From Sideroxyarcus sp. (GTDB lineage: Bacteria; Pseudomonadota; Gammaproteobacteria; Burkholderiales; Gallionellaceae): a stretch of DNA of 64,000 nucleotides. Below are positions 1,643-20,692 of the stretch, piece by piece (position 1 is the stretch's first letter; each line of letters starts with the position of its first letter). The stretch is taken from assembly GCA_030652215.1 (NCBI GenBank), contig JAUSBC010000004.1:1-64000 (forward strand), given 5' to 3'. A program made the position numbers and the translations under genes. Under the pieces are notes generated by a model. The model was not told the origin of the DNA. It ran no database searches and saw nothing but the letters and a program-made list of their open reading frames with translations.

Positions 1643-3790
1643 ATGAAATCTGCACCAATGTCAGTACCCGTCAAAGCAAACACTGCAAATCGCAATGCAG
1701 GGTTTCCGGTCATTCAGTCCAAGCGCTTGTTACAGTTGGCCGGTTTGTTTGTTTGCATTTCGGCCGTCGGCAGCGTGCATGCGGACGACCCGCAAACACT
1801 TCAGGAAATCAAGGTGACCGGCAAGACCGAAGATATTGCAGAGCGCCGCGAAGCCACTACGCAGAAGATCATTCTGGATCGCGCGGAGATCGAGAAGATG
1901 AGCGTCATGACCATCGGCGAAGTGCTCGGCAAATTGCCGGGTGTGGAAATGCCTGCGGGTGGCATGGGGCAGCGTACGCGCGGCATGTCGCGCGATTCGG
2001 TACAGGTGCTGGTGGACGGTGAGCGTTCGGCAGGGGGCGGCGCGATGGTGGGCGTCATCGGGCGTCTGCCATCCGGTGATCTGGATCGCGTTGAGATCGT
2101 GCGCGGTTCGTCGGCGGAGTTCGGCGGTGCGGCCTCGGTTACGGTGAACCTGATCATGAAGAAGGCGATACCCAAGAGTTCGACGGAAATCAGGGTGGGG
2201 CTGGGCAAGCGCGGTAGCGAATCCTATAGCCAGCTTGCCATCACCCAGAACGGAGGCGAGGGCGGATTCGCCTGGTCGCTGCCGATCGGTCTGGTCTGGA
2301 ACAATTCCCCGATTTCGAACAGCGCAGAAAAGCAGGACTCGACTCTCGCGCATACCTATGAAAGCGAGAGCGGCGCTACCAAATTCGGCCATCACACCAT
2401 TACGCCGCGCATGACCTGGAAAGATGGCAGCGACAGTCTGACTGTTGCGCCGATGATGTTCCTGGGCCCGAAAGAATCGAACAGCGAAACAACGTTGACG
2501 GGTTCTGCCACGCCCGCAGAGAACGGAGTGCGTGCGAATTCAGTGAAGAGCCTGATGCGCACAACCCGGGTTCGCGTCGAGGGTGAAAAACACATCAACG
2601 ATTCCAAGCTGACCGGCCGTACTGCGGTCAACAGAACCAAGAATACGGCTGATACGGTACGTACCGGTCTGACGAATACGACAGATCACACCGAGAGCAC
2701 GGATATCGAAACCAACTTCGCTTTGCGTCTGGACAAGCCGCTGGGCGGCGAGCATCTGGTGGCGGTGGGTGTGGAGTATGTCAATCTGCGCCGCACGCAG
2801 GACCAGAATTTCAACGGCAGTGTTGCCGCCTACGAGGCGAAAGAGCGTCAAAGCATTGCCTGGGTGCAGGACGACTGGATGGTGCAACCCAAAACCACAC
2901 TGACCTACGGTTTGCGCGGGGAATCCATCTCGTTGAACTCTGCGGGTATTTCGCAACAGCGCGGGCAATTGATGCCTTCCGTGGCGGTACGCTGGGAGCC
3001 GATGGAGCAATGGGTGGCGCGTTCGTCGTTGGGCACGGGTTTGAAGATGCCCAAGCTGGACGAGATCAGCAATGCAGATACTCGCAGCATTATCAATACG
3101 CCGGTGGATGCGGACAAGCGCGGAAATCCGGATCTGCAGCCGGAGCGCAGCGTCAATTTCGAGGCGGTGCTGGAACGCTATCTCGATAAAGAAGCGGGCG
3201 TGCTGGGTGCCAATTTGTATGTTCGTTCCACTCGGGACTTTACCGAGCGTCGCGTGCAGCAGGAATTGCAGGAGGATATGACCTTGCGCTGGGTCGACAG
3301 GCCGCAGAACGAAGGTAAGGCGCTCCACTGGGGCCTGGAACTGGACGGCAAAGTGCGTACCGACAGCTTTGGATGGAAAGGTGCTACCGTGAAATCGCAT
3401 CTCACCTTGCCGCATGCCAAAGTGAACGACGAGCGCCTCGGCATCACACGCATGGCGCGCGATACACCCAAATACGTATTGTCTGGCGGTCTGGACGGGA
3501 GCCTGCCCAAACTGCAATCCAGTTATGGCATGACGCTGCAACTATCCGGGCGTAGCGTGACTGATATTCCCGGCGAGCAATACGTTGTAACCAAAGCGCG
3601 AACCACGCTGGATGCGTTCTGGCTTTACAGGATCAATGCACAATTCAAGTTGCGCCTGAGCGGGCAGAATCTGCTGGCAGCGGATTCGGTGCGGGATACC
3701 CGGTTCACTTCTGCGGGAAATACGTGGCAATTGCACTCCGTGGATGATGGATATCGCTCGCTCATGGCGACTTTAGAGGGGCGCTGGTAG
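1643..3790 (+). CDS. TonB-dependent outer membrane receptor
   Basis: 715-residue outer membrane transporter. The signal peptide has hydrophobic core LLQLAGLFVCISAVG and probable cleavage after SVHA (residue 47). Next comes a TonB-box-like segment, LQEIKVTG, and a plug domain with the typical pattern VLVDGE, DLDRVEIVRG and SSAEFGG. A long C-terminal beta-barrel ends in aromatic W, as expected for BAM recognition. ATG at 1643 is chosen over ATG at 1622 because GGGAAG lies 6 nt upstream of it. The gene is followed directly by tonB-exbB-exbD, so the whole uptake system is probably one operon. The ligand (siderophore, metal chelate or other) cannot be told from the sequence. Confidence 0.92.
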   Translation: MKSAPMSVPVKANTANRNAGFPVIQSKRLLQLAGLFVCISAVGSVHADDPQTLQEIKVTGKTEDIAERREATTQKIILDRAEIEKMSVMTIGEVLGKLPGVEMPAGGMGQRTRGMSRDSVQVLVDGERSAGGGAMVGVIGRLPSGDLDRVEIVRGSSAEFGGAASVTVNLIMKKAIPKSSTEIRVGLGKRGSESYSQLAITQNGGEGGFAWSLPIGLVWNNSPISNSAEKQDSTLAHTYESESGATKFGHHTITPRMTWKDGSDSLTVAPMMFLGPKESNSETTLTGSATPAENGVRANSVKSLMRTTRVRVEGEKHINDSKLTGRTAVNRTKNTADTVRTGLTNTTDHTESTDIETNFALRLDKPLGGEHLVAVGVEYVNLRRTQDQNFNGSVAAYEAKERQSIAWVQDDWMVQPKTTLTYGLRGESISLNSAGISQQRGQLMPSVAVRWEPMEQWVARSSLGTGLKMPKLDEISNADTRSIINTPVDADKRGNPDLQPERSVNFEAVLERYLDKEAGVLGANLYVRSTRDFTERRVQQELQEDMTLRWVDRPQNEGKALHWGLELDGKVRTDSFGWKGATVKSHLTLPHAKVNDERLGITRMARDTPKYVLSGGLDGSLPKLQSSYGMTLQLSGRSVTDIPGEQYVVTKARTTLDAFWLYRINAQFKLRLSGQNLLAADSVRDTRFTSAGNTWQLHSVDDGYRSLMATLEGRW

Positions 3791-3803
3791 CATGGAGGCT
3801 GTC

Positions 3804-4430
3804 ATGGACATGGTGGGAACGCTGGAAATGTATTCGCAATTATCCAATGAACCGGAGAAATCGCCGCTGAGCGAGCGTTTTATCGTCGTCGGTTTGGTCG
3901 TTTTGCTGCATCTGCTGGTGTTTGCATCCTACTTCTTGCAGCCTGAGTCACCGGCCGTGCTGGTCAACGAGATGTCGATTTCTTTTGCCAACATGCAGAT
4001 GCAGCAGGCAGACGTCGTGCCGCAGCCCAAACCCAAGCCGCGTGAACCGGAACCGGTTCCGGCGGAAGAGCCGGCGGTGCAGGAAGTTGCCGAGCCCGTG
4101 GCGCAGGATGCCACACCGCCTTCCCCGGTGGTGCTGGATGCCGAGCCGGATTACAAAGCCGATTACCTGAACAACCCGCGTCCGCCTTATCCCATGGTGG
4201 CCAGACGCATGGGGTACCACGGCAAAGTGGTGCTGGATGTCGAAGTGCTGGCCGAAGGCAAGGCAGGGGATGTAAAACTGCATCAGAGTTGCGGCCATGA
4301 CATCCTCGACAATGCCGCACTGCAGACGGTCAAGACCTGGCGTTTTTCGCCGGCGCGCCGTTTCGGTCAGGCCGTTACACAACGGTTTCTGGTCCCGATC
4401 AAATTTTCACTAGAGGATAGCGAAGCATGA
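3804..4430 (+). CDS. tonB: energy transducer TonB
   Basis: 208 residues. An N-terminal membrane anchor at about 25-44 (RFIVVGLVVLLHLLVFASYF) is followed by a Pro/Glu/Lys-rich periplasmic spacer (QPKPKPREPEPVPAEEP). The C-terminal TonB domain has RPPYPMVARRMGYHG and a TVKTWRFSPAR segment. It passes proton-motive-force energy from ExbBD to outer membrane receptors by binding the TonB box. ATG 3804 is preferred over ATG 3792 because GGAGG (3794-3798) is 5 nt upstream. The gene lies 13 nt after the receptor and its stop overlaps the exbB start (ATGA). Confidence 0.93.
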   Translation: MDMVGTLEMYSQLSNEPEKSPLSERFIVVGLVVLLHLLVFASYFLQPESPAVLVNEMSISFANMQMQQADVVPQPKPKPREPEPVPAEEPAVQEVAEPVAQDATPPSPVVLDAEPDYKADYLNNPRPPYPMVARRMGYHGKVVLDVEVLAEGKAGDVKLHQSCGHDILDNAALQTVKTWRFSPARRFGQAVTQRFLVPIKFSLEDSEA

Positions 4431-5083
4431 ATAACTTTTTTTCTGTCAACTCCACCATCGTTTTTGCCACGCTGCTACTGCTGATTGTTCTGTCAATCGC
4501 CACCTGGTCCATCGCCCTGTTCAAGTTGTGGAAGCAATTGCAGGGGAAGAAGGATGATCGCGCATTCAACGACAGCTTTTGGTCGGTGCGTGAATGGAGT
4601 GCAGCAGAGAAGGCGGCGGAGAACAGCAAGGGTGACATCGCCCGTTTGGCACAGGCCGGGTTTTCCGAGTTGAAGGCCTTGAGCGAAACGCAGCATGACT
4701 TGAAACACATAGGTACTCCGCACGAAGTGCTGGAGCGCCAGTTGCGCCAGCAACTGCAGAACATCCAGCGCTTCCATGAACGCGGTCTGGCGGAATTGGC
4801 CACCATCGGTTCCACCGCACCCTTCGTCGGCTTGTTCGGCACGGTATGGGGCATCATGCACGCGCTGCAGGAGATCGGGAAAAGCGGCTCGGCTTCGCTG
4901 GATATCGTGGCGGGCCCCATCGGCGAAGCGCTCATCGCCACTGCCATCGGTATCGCCACCGCACTGCCCGCCGTGCTGGCCTACAACTTCTTCCTGCGTC
5001 GCCTGAAAGTGCATGTGACCGATCTGGAGAACTTCGCGCACGATTTCATGCGTTTGGCACAGAAGCACAATTACAAACAGTGA
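4427..5083 (+). CDS. exbB: MotA/TolQ/ExbB proton channel family protein
   Basis: 218 residues with three membrane segments: N-terminal (about 8-30), and a conserved pair around STAPFVGLFGTVWGIMHAL and IGEALIATAIGIATALPAV, which form the family's proton-channel core. A cytoplasmic loop of about 90 residues separates the first and second. ExbB pentamers with ExbD dimers power TonB. Its position between tonB and exbD argues for ExbB rather than TolQ. ATGA overlap with tonB. Confidence 0.93.
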   Translation: MNNFFSVNSTIVFATLLLLIVLSIATWSIALFKLWKQLQGKKDDRAFNDSFWSVREWSAAEKAAENSKGDIARLAQAGFSELKALSETQHDLKHIGTPHEVLERQLRQQLQNIQRFHERGLAELATIGSTAPFVGLFGTVWGIMHALQEIGKSGSASLDIVAGPIGEALIATAIGIATALPAVLAYNFFLRRLKVHVTDLENFAHDFMRLAQKHNYKQ

Positions 5084-5090
5084 GGCCGGT

Positions 5091-5501
5091 ATGAGTTTCG
5101 GAAACAATTCCTCCGAGGAAGGCAGCATGATGAGCGAGATCAACGTCACGCCGCTGGTGGACGTGATGCTGGTGCTGCTGGTGGTGTTCATCATCACCGC
5201 GCCTTTGCTGGCGCCGCAGTCGCTCAAGATCAACCTGCCCAAGACCGAATCGGTCATCCACGACGACAAACTGCAGAAGGTCAGTCTTGCCATCGACGCC
5301 AAAGGCGAGGTCTCGCTTGAAAATGCACATCTCAGCGATGAAGGCTTGGCCGAGCTGCTGAAAAATCGCGCCGTCGATCCGCAATTCCAGTTGCAGATCC
5401 AGGCGGACGAGGCGGTGAACTACGGCCGCGTGGCGCAGGTGATGGCCATAGCGCAAAAGGCGGGTGTTGCCAAACTGTCGTTTCTGACGATTACCAAGTA
5501 A
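5091..5501 (+). CDS. exbD: biopolymer transport protein ExbD
   Basis: 136 residues. The cytoplasmic N-tail SEINVTPLVD is followed by one membrane helix (about 22-42). D24 falls where the essential protonatable Asp of ExbD/TolR lies. The periplasmic domain ends with a TolR-like pattern (INYGRV-type segment followed by a terminal strand). Starts 7 nt after exbB with a GAGG ribosome-binding site and closes the receptor-tonB-exbBD cluster. Confidence 0.93.
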   Translation: MSFGNNSSEEGSMMSEINVTPLVDVMLVLLVVFIITAPLLAPQSLKINLPKTESVIHDDKLQKVSLAIDAKGEVSLENAHLSDEGLAELLKNRAVDPQFQLQIQADEAVNYGRVAQVMAIAQKAGVAKLSFLTITK

Positions 5502-5766
5502 TGAATGGTGGCTGACTATCCGGCTAATCCCTTATCCCCCATTGCCCGAGCGAGCTTGTTCGCGAATGCGGCAAACATATTCACCTGCAGGTATTGGTTA
5601 ACGCGCTGATTATTAGTTGTTTTGCTTGTCTGGTGTTGGCGCCGCATGGTGTGTGTGTCGGCGGGTTTCCGGCATGCCGGTTGTCGCCATGCATCGGCAA
5701 TACCAGATAAGCATTGCCGAAATTGGGTTAGGATTGCGCAAAATATAACTATTCGGCCAATCAGTC

Positions 5767-8673
5767 TTGCCTATAGCCTGGAACATCCCGCTGGTCGCAT
5801 TGTCCGTGCTGGTCGCCATGATCGGTTCGTTCACCGCACTCACTCACGCGCAGCGTATGCGCGAGAACAGCGGGCGGGCGGCGATGTGGTGGATGATTGT
5901 CGGCAGTTTCACGCTGGGCACGGCGATTTGGTCCATGCACTTCATCGGCATGCTGGCCATGCATCTGCCCATCCCGCTCTCCTACGATTTGTCCCTGACG
6001 CTGCTTTCCGTGGTGCCCTCGATTGCCGCGGCCTTGCTCGGTTTCCGGGTGTTGCGCGATGAGCATGTCAGTACTTTGCGCCTGTTCGTCAGCGGACTGG
6101 TGATGGGGACGGGCATCTGCGTGATGCACTACACAGGCATGGATGCGCTCAAGATGTCGCCGCCGATTTCCTATGATCCGCTGATTTTCGTCCTGTCGGT
6201 CGTGATTGCGGTGGTTGCGTCCTGGGGGGCGTTGCTGATGATGTACCAGGGGCAGCGCATCAGGCTGAAACCGGTACCGCGTTTCTTGCTCGGCGCTGTG
6301 GTCATGGGGGCGGCGATTTCGGGCATGCACTATACCGCCATGCAGGGCGTGCACATTCAGTCCGGCAGCATGTGCCTCTCCGCCGCTTCCAGCATAGAAC
6401 CGCACATTCTTGTGTTGCTGGTGTCGCTGACCTCGATGTTCTGGTTCGGCGGCGGCATACTCGCCACGCTGTTCGACCAGCGCATGGCGCGGCAGAACGA
6501 GCTTGCCCTGGCCGAACTGGCCAAGGTGCACAGCGAGTTGAAGCAGCGCGCCGAGCAGCATGCCGCAGAAATGACGCAATCCCTGCGCGATTCGCACGAG
6601 GCGTTGCAGCGCGTGCTCGATTCGGTTGCCGAAGGCATTTACGGCGTGGACATGGAAGGGCGCTGCACGTTCATTAACGCCTCGGGTGTGGCCATGCTGG
6701 GCTATGCCGATGCGGGAGAGTTCGTGGGAAAACGTATCCATCAGCTCATCAATCACTCGCGGCCGGATGGTTCTCCCTACCCGGAGAACGAATGCCGCAT
6801 GTGTAACGTGTTCGCGAACAAGCAGGATGTCCAGGTGGATGACGAAGTGTTCTGGCGCAAGGACGGAACCTCGTTCCCGGTCGAATACTGGGCGCACCCC
6901 ATCGTCAAGGACGGTGCGTTGGGCGGCGCCGTCGCCACCTTTTTCGACATTTCCGAGCGCAAGCGCAGCGAGGCCGCGTTGCATGAGAGCGGGGTGTTTA
7001 CCGAATCCCTGCTGCAGACGATGCCGGTGCCGGTGTTTCACAAGAACACGCAGGGCCGCTATACAGGCTGCAACGGCGCGTTCGCCGAATTCATCGGAAA
7101 AACCAAGGAAGAAGTCGTCGGCAAGACGGTGTTCGAGATTGCGCCGCAGCCGCTTTCCGCCGGTTACCGCGACAAGGATCTCGATTTGCTGGATCACCCG
7201 CAGGGGGTGCAGGTGTACGAAGGCCGCGTCATGCATGCCGACGGAACGCTGCACGACGTGATCTTCCACAAGGCGCGCATGGTCGGCAGCAACGGCGATC
7301 CCACCGGCATCATCGGCGTCATCCTGGACATCACCGAGCGCAAGAAAACGGAGCTGCAAATCCACCAGTTGGCTTTCTACGACGCGCTGACGCAGTTGCC
7401 GAACCGCCGCCTGCTGATGGACCGGCTGCATCAGGCGTTCGCGGTGAGCGCGCGCAATTCGCAGCACGGCGCGATCATGTTTCTCGACCTGGATCATTTC
7501 AAGACGCTCAACGATACCAAGGGGCACGAGATCGGCGACCTGTTGCTGATCGAAGTGGCGGCGCGCTTGTCGGATTGCGTGCGCGACGGCGACACGGTGG
7601 CGCGCCTGGGCGGGGATGAGTTCGTGGTGGTGTTGGAGACGCTCAAGAACAACGCCCAGGAGGCGGCCAACCAGGCGGAACGCGTGGCCGAGAAGATACA
7701 GGCCGCGCTGAACCGGCCTTTTCAGATCAAGGGACGCACCCACCACTCGACCTCCAGCATCGGCATCGTGATGTTCATTGGGCACGACGACGGCGTGGAC
7801 GATTTGCTCAAGTACGCCGACATTGCCATGTATCAGGCCAAGACGGCGGGGCGCAACGCCATTCGCTTTTACGACCCCGCGACGCAATCGGCCATCGAAG
7901 CGCGTGCGGATATGGAAACCGAACTGCGGCTGTCGCTCGAGCACCGCCAGTTCGTGCCTTATTACCAGATCCAGGTGGACAGCTCTTTCCGCGCGGTGGG
8001 GGCGGAGTTGCTGTTGCGCTGGATGCATCCGGAGCGCGGGCTGATTAGTCCGGCGCAATTCATCCCGTTGCTGGAGGAAAGCGGCATGATCGTGCCGGTC
8101 GGGATGTGGGTATTGCAGGCCGCCTGCGAGCAGTTGCGCGCCTGGCAGGGCAGTGCGCAGACCCGCGACCTGACGCTGGCGGTGAATGTGAGTGCCAAGC
8201 AGTTCCGCCAGCCCGACTTTGTCGCGCGGATTCAGCGTGTACTGCTGGAAACCGGCGCCAAACCCTCGCATCTCAAGCTGGAGCTGACGGAGAGCATCGT
8301 GCTGGAAAACGTGGAAAGCACCATTGCCCGCATGCGCGAGCTGAAACTGCTGGGCGTGAGCTTCTCCATGGACGATTTCGGCACCGGCTATTCCTCGCTG
8401 CAATACCTCAAGCAGCTGCCGCTGGACCAGATCAAGATCGATCGTTCCTTCGTGCGCGATATCGCCTCGGACGTGAACGATGCCGCCATCGTGCAGACCA
8501 TCATCGCCATGAGCGATGCGCTGGCGCTGAACGTGATCGCGGAAGGCGTGGAAACCGTGGCACAACGCGAATTCCTCGAAAAACACGGCTGCCACGCGTA
8601 TCAGGGCTTTTTGTTCGGCAAACCACTGCCGCTGGAGGAATTCGAGCAGTCGCTGCGCCGGGACACGCATTAG
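5767..8673 (+). CDS. MHYT-PAS-PAS-GGDEF-EAL cyclic-di-GMP signalling protein
   Basis: 968 residues. The membrane domain of about 230 residues has three MHYT repeats (SMHFIGM, VMHYTGM, GMHYTAM), a sensor proposed to bind copper and sense O2, CO or NO. A coiled coil and two PAS domains (about 285-525) follow, then GGDEF with intact RLGGDEF (about 610-617), then EAL. In the EAL domain the signature reads AELLLRW (about 745) instead of EALLRW. The other phosphodiesterase motifs look intact: ELTES, DDFGTGYSSL, KIDRSF and AEGVE. The only in-frame start after a stop at 5746 is TTG 5767, without a clear Shine-Dalgarno; a weak TATAAC (5744-5749) lies close, so the leader may be very short. Whether it makes or degrades c-di-GMP cannot be told. 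The 265 bp before it holds nothing else I can assign. Confidence 0.9.
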   Translation: MPIAWNIPLVALSVLVAMIGSFTALTHAQRMRENSGRAAMWWMIVGSFTLGTAIWSMHFIGMLAMHLPIPLSYDLSLTLLSVVPSIAAALLGFRVLRDEHVSTLRLFVSGLVMGTGICVMHYTGMDALKMSPPISYDPLIFVLSVVIAVVASWGALLMMYQGQRIRLKPVPRFLLGAVVMGAAISGMHYTAMQGVHIQSGSMCLSAASSIEPHILVLLVSLTSMFWFGGGILATLFDQRMARQNELALAELAKVHSELKQRAEQHAAEMTQSLRDSHEALQRVLDSVAEGIYGVDMEGRCTFINASGVAMLGYADAGEFVGKRIHQLINHSRPDGSPYPENECRMCNVFANKQDVQVDDEVFWRKDGTSFPVEYWAHPIVKDGALGGAVATFFDISERKRSEAALHESGVFTESLLQTMPVPVFHKNTQGRYTGCNGAFAEFIGKTKEEVVGKTVFEIAPQPLSAGYRDKDLDLLDHPQGVQVYEGRVMHADGTLHDVIFHKARMVGSNGDPTGIIGVILDITERKKTELQIHQLAFYDALTQLPNRRLLMDRLHQAFAVSARNSQHGAIMFLDLDHFKTLNDTKGHEIGDLLLIEVAARLSDCVRDGDTVARLGGDEFVVVLETLKNNAQEAANQAERVAEKIQAALNRPFQIKGRTHHSTSSIGIVMFIGHDDGVDDLLKYADIAMYQAKTAGRNAIRFYDPATQSAIEARADMETELRLSLEHRQFVPYYQIQVDSSFRAVGAELLLRWMHPERGLISPAQFIPLLEESGMIVPVGMWVLQAACEQLRAWQGSAQTRDLTLAVNVSAKQFRQPDFVARIQRVLLETGAKPSHLKLELTESIVLENVESTIARMRELKLLGVSFSMDDFGTGYSSLQYLKQLPLDQIKIDRSFVRDIASDVNDAAIVQTIIAMSDALALNVIAEGVETVAQREFLEKHGCHAYQGFLFGKPLPLEEFEQSLRRDTH

Positions 8674-18474: not shown

Positions 18475-18585
18475 ATGAAAAAAGCATATGAAGACGCTGC
18501 CAAGCTAGTCCGTTGGGCGTTAATCGGTGCGGCTGCGATTATCATCGCGCTACCGATGGTTACCTCCGTCGGAGCTTCCCTCTAA
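18475..18585 (+). CDS. 36-residue single-span membrane peptide
   Basis: A small open frame from ATG 18475, preceded by AGCGAGGTG, encoding a basic/acidic amphipathic head (MKKAYEDAAKLVRW) and one hydrophobic helix (ALIGAAAIIIALPMV), ending at TAA 18583. It has a usable ribosome-binding site and its own strong terminator 15 nt later, as for an independently transcribed small gene. No family recognised. It could be a stress-induced small membrane protein; translation is unproven. Confidence 0.6.
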   Translation: MKKAYEDAAKLVRWALIGAAAIIIALPMVTSVGASL

Positions 18586-18600
18586 ACTCCATAAAGCAAA

Positions 18601-18630
18601 CGCCCCGGTACGCAAGTACCGGGGCGTTTT
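18601..18630. terminator. strong, probably bidirectional intrinsic terminator
   Basis: Perfect 11-bp stem CGCCCCGGTAC/GTACCGGGGCG closed by a GCAA tetraloop, with TTTT after it on the + strand and TTTGCTTT after it on the - strand. It separates the small peptide gene from the convergent cytochrome c peroxidase gene. Confidence 0.88.
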
Positions 18631-18649: not shown

Positions 18650-19645
18650 TTATTTCTTCGTGAACGGCTGCGAACGCGGCGTGCTGTCCGATGACGGCGG
18701 CAGGATTGGCAGCTTGAAGTCCGGTTGATCGCCGGTGAGCGTCTTCAGGAAAGCGACGATCTTGGCATTCTCGTCCTCGGTGAATTTCTTGCCCAACTGG
18801 ACGCGTCCCATCGTATTCACGGCTTCTTTCAGCGTGTCGGCAGCACCGTCGTGGAAGTACGGATACGTCATTTCCACGTTGCGCAGTGTCGGCACCTTGA
18901 AGTTGAAGCGGTCGGCATCGACACCGGTGACGGCGAAACGGCCCTCGGCAGGACTGCTGGCCTTGTACGGCTCGACCAGGCCCATCTTCTGGTAGGAATT
19001 GCCGCCGACGGCGGGGCCGTTGTGGCAGGCTACGCAGCCGCTATCCTTGAACAGTTTGTAACCGGCCAGTTCGTTGGCCGTGAGCGCCTTCTTGTCTCCC
19101 TTGAGCCATTTGTCGAAACGCGAATTGGGCGTTGTCAGTGTTTCTTCGAAAGCGGCGATGGCCTTGGTCACTTCCTCTATCGTCACCTTGTCGTTGCCGA
19201 AGACTTTCTTGAACTCCGCGACGTAGGCCGGAATGGACTGCAGCACTTCGACCGCGAGCGCATGGTTGGACGCCATTTCGCCCGGATTGGCAATCGGACC
19301 GCCAGCCTGCGCCTGCAAATCCTTGGCGCGGCCGTCCCAGAACTGGGCGAGGTTCATGCTGGAATTGAGCACGGTGGGGGCATTGATCGGGCCTTCGTTC
19401 CAGTTATGGCCGATGGAAGTTTTCAGGTTGTCAGTTCCGCCCATCGACAGATTGTGGCAGGAGTTGCAGGAAATGAAGCCCGACTTGGACAGGCGCGGAT
19501 CGAAGAAGAGTTTCTTGCCGAGTTCCACCAGAGCCGGGTTGGCGATCTTGATTTGCGGGATAGGCTGGATCGGTTCGTCGGTGGCAGCCCAGGTGCTGGA
19601 AGAGCCGGCCAAAAGTAGACTTGCGATGAGGATGCGGATTTGCAT
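18650..19645 (-). CDS. ccpA: di-haem cytochrome c peroxidase (MauG/CcpA family)
   Basis: 331 residues with a signal peptide (ILIASLLLAGSSSTWA, cleavage near residue 20). Two c-type haem sites: CNSCH (60-64, low-potential peroxidatic haem) and CVACH (204-208, high-potential haem), with NTMGRVQLGK supplying the probable distal Met ligand. It reduces periplasmic H2O2 to water with electrons from cytochrome c. AAGGAG precedes ATG 19645. Divergent from oxyR; the 138-bp spacer carries an FNR-type box about 70 bp upstream of the start and an OxyR operator, a pairing also known for the E. coli ccp (yhjA) gene. Confidence 0.94.
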   Translation of the reverse strand: MQIRILIASLLLAGSSSTWAATDEPIQPIPQIKIANPALVELGKKLFFDPRLSKSGFISCNSCHNLSMGGTDNLKTSIGHNWNEGPINAPTVLNSSMNLAQFWDGRAKDLQAQAGGPIANPGEMASNHALAVEVLQSIPAYVAEFKKVFGNDKVTIEEVTKAIAAFEETLTTPNSRFDKWLKGDKKALTANELAGYKLFKDSGCVACHNGPAVGGNSYQKMGLVEPYKASSPAEGRFAVTGVDADRFNFKVPTLRNVEMTYPYFHDGAADTLKEAVNTMGRVQLGKKFTEDENAKIVAFLKTLTGDQPDFKLPILPPSSDSTPRSQPFTKK

Positions 19646-19686
19646 GTTTAGCTCCTTCTACGTTGAAAAGTCTTACACTGCATGCC

Positions 19687-19727
19687 ATGCTACTATTCGA
19701 GAGATGATTAATATTGATATATATCAA
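19687..19727 (-). promoter_or_regulatory. FNR/ANR-type box and putative ccpA promoter
   Basis: TTGAT-ATAT-ATCAA at 19714-19727 matches the FNR consensus TTGAT-N4-ATCAA perfectly and is the core of an 18-bp palindrome (19712-19729). On the - strand a TAGCAT hexamer (19692-19687) would put the transcription start near 19680, making the box centre about -41, the class II activation geometry. The match and spacing are seen; oxygen-responsive control of ccpA is inferred. Confidence 0.75.
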
Positions 19728-19736
19728 TAACTTATG

Positions 19737-19773
19737 ATAGTTTTTCCGTATAGTGTATATAGGTATTCCCTAT
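19737..19773. promoter_or_regulatory. OxyR operator
   Basis: The pattern ATAG-N7-GTAT-N7-ATAG-N7-CTAT matches the E. coli OxyR tetramer motif (four elements on 11-bp steps) at 15 of 16 defined positions. It ends one base before the oxyR ribosome-binding site (AGGAGG 19774-19779), so bound OxyR should repress its own gene, and it is placed upstream of the FNR box with respect to ccpA. Confidence 0.82.
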
Positions 19774-19783
19774 AGGAGGATGC

Positions 19784-20692
19784 ATGAAGCTTTCAGCATT
19801 GCGGTACCTGGTGGCTTTCGCGGACGAGAGTTCCTTCAGTCGGGCGGCAGAGCGTTGCCAGGTCAGCCAGCCGACACTGAGTGTCGCGTTGCAGAACCTG
19901 GAGACGGAATTGGGCGTGGCGCTGATCGAGCGCAGCAAGGGGCATCTGGGGCTGACCGATGTCGGTTTTCAGGTCACGGCGCAGGCGCGCCGCGCGCTGG
20001 AAGAAACACGGCGCGTGGAACTGGTGGCGCAGATGGGCAAGGACCCGCTGCACGGCGAATTCCGTCTGGGCGTCATTCATACCATCGGCCCCTATCTGCT
20101 GCCGGAACTGATCTCGTCCATGCGCCGCACCGCACCGCACATGTCTCTATATATAGAGGAGAGCATGACGGCCTTGCTTGCCGATTACCTTAAATACGGA
20201 ACTGTTGATGCTGTCATCGTTGCATTGCCGTTCGACGTGCCGGGCATCGAGACCAGGGCGCTGTACGACGAACCGTTTCAAGTGGTCGTTCCGCGCAGCC
20301 ACGCTTTCGCAAGACGCAAAAGCATTGCCGCCGAGGAAGTGCGCGGAGACGACGTGCTGGTGTTGAAGGCAGGCAACTGTTTTCGCGAGCAAGTGCTCGA
20401 CGCCTGCCCGGACATCAGCCATGCGGAAGGCTCGTTGCATCAGGGGCATTCCATTGAAACGATACGCTGCATGGTTGCATCCGGCTACGGCATTTCCGTG
20501 CTTCCGGCCGGTTCGCTGATCGGTCCGTACCGAACCGACATGGTACGTTCTATTCCCTTCGAGGCGCCGGAACCGGCGCGGCGTGTGGCCCTGGCTTGGC
20601 GCCGTGGATATACGCGGATGGAGGCGATCGAGGCGATTGTCGATGCGGTGTCCGCAATCGACAATCCAAGCTACATCCATATTGGCTCCTGA
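19784..20692 (+). CDS. oxyR: hydrogen peroxide-sensing LysR regulator OxyR
   Basis: 302 residues. An N-terminal winged helix-turn-helix (SFSRAAERCQVSQPTLSVAL) is followed by a LysR substrate domain. The redox pair falls at C199 and C208 (KAGNCFREQVLDAC), the same numbering as the disulfide-forming cysteines of E. coli OxyR, which separates it from ordinary LysR proteins. RBS AGGAGG, ATG 19784. It probably activates ccpA on peroxide stress and represses itself through the operator at 19737-19773. Confidence 0.93.
   Translation: MKLSALRYLVAFADESSFSRAAERCQVSQPTLSVALQNLETELGVALIERSKGHLGLTDVGFQVTAQARRALEETRRVELVAQMGKDPLHGEFRLGVIHTIGPYLLPELISSMRRTAPHMSLYIEESMTALLADYLKYGTVDAVIVALPFDVPGIETRALYDEPFQVVVPRSHAFARRKSIAAEEVRGDDVLVLKAGNCFREQVLDACPDISHAEGSLHQGHSIETIRCMVASGYGISVLPAGSLIGPYRTDMVRSIPFEAPEPARRVALAWRRGYTRMEAIEAIVDAVSAIDNPSYIHIGS

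Follow-up and report, generated by a model that had tools for sequence, protein, structure and literature searches.

The window analysed here, a stretch of 64,000 nucleotides from a contig of Sideroxyarcus sp. (JAUSBC010000004.1, assembly GCA_030652215.1), carries a divergent gene pair: ccpA, which encodes a di-haem cytochrome c peroxidase, on the reverse strand, and a gene for an OxyR-type regulator on the forward strand. We call the latter oxyR2, a name given in this analysis that implies no orthology to the OxyR2 of Vibrio. The spacer between the two is 138 bp long and holds the following features, which are listed together with the two genes.

18650..19645, − strand: ccpA, di-haem cytochrome c peroxidase, 331 aa (Pfam and solved-structure matches, CxxCH motifs)
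19652..19657, − strand: AAGGAG, likely ribosome-binding site of ccpA (sequence reading)
19687..19692, − strand: TAGCAT, candidate −10 of ccpA, 4/6 (offset 22 from the FNR box)
19714..19727, no strand assigned: perfect FNR box TTGATATATATCAA (TTGAT-N4-ATCAA; FNR-like box of at least 9/10 in 32/39 loci)
19737..19773, no strand assigned: OxyR tetramer box, 15/16 (ATAG-N7-GTAT-N7-ATAG-N7-CTAT; at least 12/16 in 37/39 loci)
19774..19779, + strand: AGGAGG, likely ribosome-binding site of oxyR2, abutting the OxyR box (sequence reading)
19784..20692, + strand: oxyR2, second OxyR-type regulator, 302 aa, with Cys199 and Cys208 (domains, match to 4x6g, own clade)

CcpA has both marks by which di-haem peroxidases were recognized, a CCP_MauG domain (Pfam, 212.8 bits, cut-off 25.6) and two CxxCH haem sites (CNSCH at 60 and CVACH at 204). 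Its top solved matches are di-haem peroxidases, with 1iqc the best (E 5.9e-153) and 3o5c, which we take to be the Shewanella CcpA structure, the second best; it is 48% identical to E. coli Ccp over 287 residues. An earlier note on this DNA had described a spacer of 138 bp between a di-haem peroxidase and an OxyR with C199 and C208, and the coordinates, the CxxCH motifs and both cysteines bear this out. At 18475–18582 the window has a 36-codon reading frame with no Pfam or NCBIfam match, followed, before the end of ccpA, by a 12-bp perfect hairpin (18600–18627), which is likely the shared terminator of ccpA and the small frame; this hairpin is absent from the output of the terminator scan.

Three perfect FNR boxes, that of the ccpA–oxyR2 spacer included, are present in the assembly, which has 3.64 Mb and is about 90% complete; the second lies within a phospholipase-D-like gene (named by eye), and the third stands in an AT-rich region, 108 bases from the contig end, on a contig that also bears cas1/cas3-like genes (by eye). 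The spacer OxyR box is the only site in the assembly with at most two mismatches to the consensus, and at three mismatches the pattern is no more frequent than in the reversed control (five vs five per strand). An OxyR box scoring 15/16 or better turned up 3 times in 20,000 first-order Markov resamples of the 138-bp spacer, and a perfect FNR box turned up 8 times. The assembly-wide counts and the resamples rule out a chance origin of the two boxes, which are present where the earlier note had placed them. As an aside, the short AT-rich contig G000:C117 (L080; G000 is the window genome), with cas1/cas3-like genes, has a base composition unlike that of the other contigs (by eye) and is possibly a mobile element or contamination.

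Conservation of the ccpA–oxyR2 spacer

We compared 39 betaproteobacterial oxyR2 loci, that of the window among them. A divergent di-haem peroxidase gene is present at 36 of these (35 with at least 63.9% identity, and L094 with 48%), L096 and L103 have no ccpA, and the contig of L113 stops 288 bp upstream. An OxyR box of 12/16 or better is found at 37 loci, where Markov resamples lead one to expect 0.58 (the remaining two, L110 and L096, score 11 and 8), and its information content is 1.56 bits in the motif columns and 0.57 in the spacers. A box that follows the wider rule TTGAY-N4-RTCAA at 9/10 positions or more, termed FNR-like here, is found at 32 loci (0.81 expected from Markov resamples), with 7/39 missing the rule. 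These conserved sites and the divergent pair justify the term compact module, which the earlier note had used. Both sites are retained in both genus-mates that bear the pair (G004 and G010, the genomes of L083 and L161), so that the check on the spacer of close relatives goes in favour of the note. Further afield its two motifs fare differently: both are conserved as sites, but the strict TTGAT-N4-ATCAA is special to the genus, being found in 3/39 loci (the window, L083 and L161), and 19 of the 32 FNR-like boxes have the form TTGAC-N4-GTCAA. A perfect FNR box conserved across relatives is accordingly rejected.

A degenerate composite of the FNR and OxyR patterns was searched in 399 genomes of the order; 3 matched, none did with the reversed control, and every match is a ccpA–oxyR2 pair: that of the window, that in the genome of L117 and that of a further member, G184. 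Where ccpA homologs of at least 70% identity adjoin oxyR2, all three carry both boxes; where homologs of 70–81% have no adjoining oxyR2, none of the five has an OxyR box of 11/16 or better in the 350 bp before the match. Of the latter five, L040 carries TTGACTTTGGTCAA, a sequence that satisfies the wider FNR-like rule. Conversely, the ccpA-less L103 keeps an OxyR box of 14/16 and has lost the FNR-like box (best 6/10), and the ccpA-less L096 has neither. L103 and L096 suggest, as two cases only, an FNR site that pertains to ccpA and an OxyR site shared by the two genes.

In most of the 39 loci an AA in the centre of the FNR-like box and a TGATT to its right appear as conserved as the box itself (by eye), and both are absent from the three loci with a perfect FNR box. 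The stretch perhaps marks a further protein or a promoter element; by its sequence it seems to exceed what an FNR box needs, and to that extent would count against the FNR reading.

A wider operon shared around the pair was considered and rejected, since, apart from the pair itself and overlapping frames, no neighbour cluster is common to more than 8 of the 39 loci (a Dps-like gene, by eye). Individual loci show further features. L109–L112 and L114, of Comamonadaceae type, have a second FNR-like box, e.g. TTGATCTGGATCAG, 139–151 bases before the oxyR2 start, nearer ccpA and past its predicted start. In L096 and L103, which have oxyR2 and no ccpA, a rubrerythrin-like gene lies just downstream of oxyR2 (by eye); in L094 (2883–5610) the peroxidase of another subfamily (48%) lies upstream and an AhpC-like gene downstream of oxyR2 (by eye); and in the genome of L117 a second ccpA-like gene (75%) lies just downstream of oxyR2, at about 4976–5965 of L117.

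OxyR2 as a second OxyR-type regulator

OxyR2 consists of the Pfam domains HTH_1 and LysR_substrate, has the OxyR structure 4x6g as its best solved match, and shows a 15/16 match to the operator ATAG-N7-CTAT-N7-ATAG-N7-CTAT at its own gene. Cys199 and Cys208 are present in the window protein and in 37/37 aligned OxyR2 sequences (L108 and L115 were omitted as short). With the NCBIfam model of the OxyR equivalog (NF008361) it scores 221 bits, below the cut-off of 329, and we therefore term it an OxyR-type paralog and not an OxyR equivalog; however, the other OxyR of the same genome, OxyR1, also falls below the cut-off (250 bits) and E. coli OxyR scores 633, which suggests a cut-off fitted to OxyR proteins of the E. 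coli kind. OxyR2 may bind DNA in a peroxide-dependent manner and activate transcription.

OxyR1 is encoded on contig C105 and is 47% identical to OxyR2. A LysR-type match was obtained in all 61 genomes searched (the window genome, G000, and 60 relatives), and a match to OxyR2 of at least 78% was obtained only in G000, G004 and G010 among the 34 genomes of the genus and in none of the 27 others, several of the 61 genomes being incomplete. A scan of a collection of species genomes with two short peptide patterns, which will have missed members, gave among its best 80 loci 38 with a relative of at least 67% and 42 with one of at most 33%. Cultured carriers include Azoarcus sp. L1K30 and Rhodoferax sp. 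U11-2br. In the tree, a single clade with support 100/100 holds 37 OxyR2 sequences and excludes the 28 OxyR1 sequences; the bootstrap had not settled, and there was a long-branch warning where the OxyR2 clade meets its neighbour. The two groups also differ around the first cysteine, OxyR2 having Asn198, Cys199, Phe200 and Arg201 in 37/37 sequences and OxyR1 having His198 in 27/28 and Ser201 in 26/28, and substitutions at positions 31, 34 and 38 set their recognition helices apart. By sequence and phylogeny, the OxyR of the window is a second, monophyletic OxyR paralog and not the main one of its genome; that it could be the only or main OxyR is ruled out by OxyR1 on C105 together with the separate clades.

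Promoter geometry and the proposed control of ccpA

On the ccpA strand a hexamer with at least 4/6 identity to TATAAT lies at offset 22 (66%) or 23 (25%) from the FNR-like box, in 29/32 loci altogether, and at any other offset from 8 to 47 such a hexamer occurs in at most 19% of the 32 loci; L095, L105 and the genus-mate L161 have none at offset 22 or 23. The distance from box to −10 would thus suit a class II activator in 29/32 loci, the transcription starts being predicted ones; an FNR-controlled promoter is expected to have its box at about −41.5. In the window, TAGCAT (19692–19687, − strand) would place the start near 19680 and the FNR centre, at 19720.5, near −41, which agrees with the activator geometry proposed in the earlier note. 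The spacing between the centres of the OxyR and FNR-like boxes is likewise constrained: it is 35.5 bp in 19 loci, 34.5 in seven (the window included), 43.5 in five and 42.5 in one, that is 34.5–35.5 bp in 26/32 loci, with six loci 8–9 bp longer. An IHF site over the right FNR half-site, judged by eye from the IHF core, would fit some loci only.

The same layout is known from E. coli, where ccp (yhjA) is controlled by FNR and OxyR (PMC10301912). Like the window, ccp of E. coli K-12 has a perfect FNR box with an OxyR box (14/16) upstream of it; the centres are 33.5 bp apart, compared with 34.5 in the window, and a TATGAT −10 stands at the same offset of 22. The E. coli protein is longer (465 aa), and is described as tri-haem and membrane-bound (PMC10301912). 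As the promoters match in geometry, two peroxidases of different build share one promoter plan. In E. coli the record coordinates put oxyR at a distance of about 489 kb from ccp, and the OxyR is the global one, whereas in the window a dedicated OxyR2 adjoins; the earlier note was right that E. coli ccp is under both regulators with no regulator next to it.

Considering these likenesses, we think it probable that FNR and OxyR2 jointly switch on ccpA while OxyR2 limits its own synthesis. The scheme would be that of E. coli ccp, but served by an OxyR dedicated to it; we propose the joint activation, its AND logic and the autorepression by OxyR2 on this analogy. Under low oxygen, FNR would bind at about −41 and recruit RNA polymerase to ccpA; in the presence of peroxide, OxyR2 would be oxidized (Cys199–Cys208) and would aid the polymerase from about −76, and the two together would give more CcpA, which may then draw on respiratory-chain electrons to reduce H2O2 in the periplasm. 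Bound to the same box, across its own leader, OxyR2 would restrain oxyR2, as has been reported for the repression of oxyR by E. coli OxyR. The arrangement suggests that CcpA is produced in response to peroxide under oxygen scarcity.

The two sites could also both act on ccpA with no AND gate, either because FNR alone suffices for anaerobic expression and OxyR2 is merely additive or because reduced OxyR2 mainly represses ccpA. The FNR box has class II geometry by itself, and elsewhere each signal can do without the other, given that the Shewanella oneidensis di-haem peroxidase gene ccpA is described as OxyR-activated (PMC6416212) and that of Neisseria gonorrhoeae, ccpR, as FNR-regulated (PMC6172773). 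We nevertheless regard the absence of a gate as unlikely, since both sites and their spacing are retained together in 32/39 loci and a requirement for both conditions is described for the E. coli promoter, which shares this plan (PMC10301912).

The identity of the protein that reads the FNR-like box bears on the first of the two signals. The FNR of the window genome scores 237 bits with NF008365 (cut-off 228) and has C-x2-C-x5-C and a Cys before EIP, the pattern of oxygen-sensing FNR (by eye). An FNR above the NCBIfam cut-off is found in 36 of the 39 genomes that hold the loci, the window's included; none is above it in the genomes of L095, L103 and L108, which may be incomplete. Many of these genomes have further, weaker Crp/Fnr matches, and 19/32 boxes have the TTGAC-N4-GTCAA form, which HcpR, another Crp/Fnr protein, can use (PMC1274295). 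According to the same source, DNR of Betaproteobacteria uses an FNR-like box, and a regulator such as the nitric-oxide-sensing DNR type might therefore be the reader, the first signal then not being low oxygen. Yet the window box is the exact FNR consensus, FNR passes the cut-off in nearly all of the genomes, and the FNR-model search of G000 returned, besides the one FNR over the cut-off, one distant homolog whose recognition helix has no E-x2-SR (by eye); we consider such a reader improbable and FNR the better candidate.

It is formally possible, finally, that the sites serve oxyR2 more than ccpA, with FNR and OxyR2 acting on an oxyR2 promoter to set the level of the regulator. The OxyR box lies close before oxyR2, L103 keeps its box at 14/16 in the absence of ccpA, and on the + strand a promoter-like match, TTGATA-16-GATAGT (9/12), overlaps both boxes (two matches there vs 1.1 expected). 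This overlapping pattern occurs in 14/32 loci and in 1–16/32 with shifted controls, and is thus not clearly conserved, so that an oxyR2 promoter made of the left FNR half-site and the first ATAG, which would speak for autorepression, was set aside; the conserved weak −10, for its part, points to ccpA, and the two ccpA-less loci (L103 with no FNR-like box, L096 with neither box) point the same way, being two cases only. We give this explanation little credence and retain joint control of ccpA by FNR and OxyR2 as the preferred reading.

Target range of OxyR2 and related systems

A model of the OxyR box (R1), built on 37 of the 39 sites (L096 and L110 left out), was searched in 14 of the 39 genomes, with at most 150 first-look candidates scored per genome, so that degenerate targets may escape. 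The site of the module itself ranked first in 14/14 genomes, as is expected by construction, and no other site in these genomes reached E 0.05 or better; G457 has seven further weak matches (E 0.055–0.66). Upstream of oxyR1 a different block, AATTGATTG...TGATTT-N7-AAATCA, is found at 16/19 or better in 22 of 28 regions; it is unlike the ATAG operator. Its OxyR-type spacing and the helix changes at positions 31, 34 and 38 hint at an altered DNA specificity. When 17 of the 28 sites were used to model the OxyR1 block, this model, too, gave one strong site per genome in 5/5 genomes, and the single-site behaviour of OxyR2 may therefore partly reflect the method.

It is quite possible, if short of probable in our view, that OxyR2 is a private OxyR that split from the main one, with a recognition helix of its own and essentially one operator, in the ccpA–oxyR2 spacer, and that cytoplasmic defence (rubrerythrin, Dps) is left to OxyR1, which uses another operator. 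If OxyR2 is private, the cell would keep peroxide respiration at low oxygen separate from its general response to peroxide.

A second OxyR with a peroxidase target of its own is also described for Vibrio vulnificus, where OxyR2 is paired with Prx2; there the target, a peroxiredoxin, is geared to low levels of H2O2, and the parts of the account drawn on here mention no FNR (PMC8115020). In what we have drawn from the accounts of S. oneidensis ccpA (PMC6416212) and N. gonorrhoeae ccpR (PMC6172773), likewise, no adjoining dedicated OxyR is described. Among the matches listed in a search of the open literature, with most subscription journals outside its scope, there is no report of a ccpA–oxyR pair in Betaproteobacteria. 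Of known systems, E. coli ccp, which shares the promoter plan, and V. vulnificus OxyR2–Prx2, which shares the second OxyR with a target of its own, stand closest.

A bacterial group other than that of E. coli thus has the FNR-plus-OxyR layout of the ccp promoter, at near-equal spacing and coupled to a dedicated OxyR. The two promoters make a natural comparison for two questions: is a two-signal gate encoded in the spacing, and do two OxyRs allow cells to treat peroxide that accepts electrons separately from peroxide that does harm?

The gene for OxyR1 in the window genome (L071, about 3240–6745, on G000:C105) is divergent from rubrerythrin-, reductase- and Dps-like genes (by eye).
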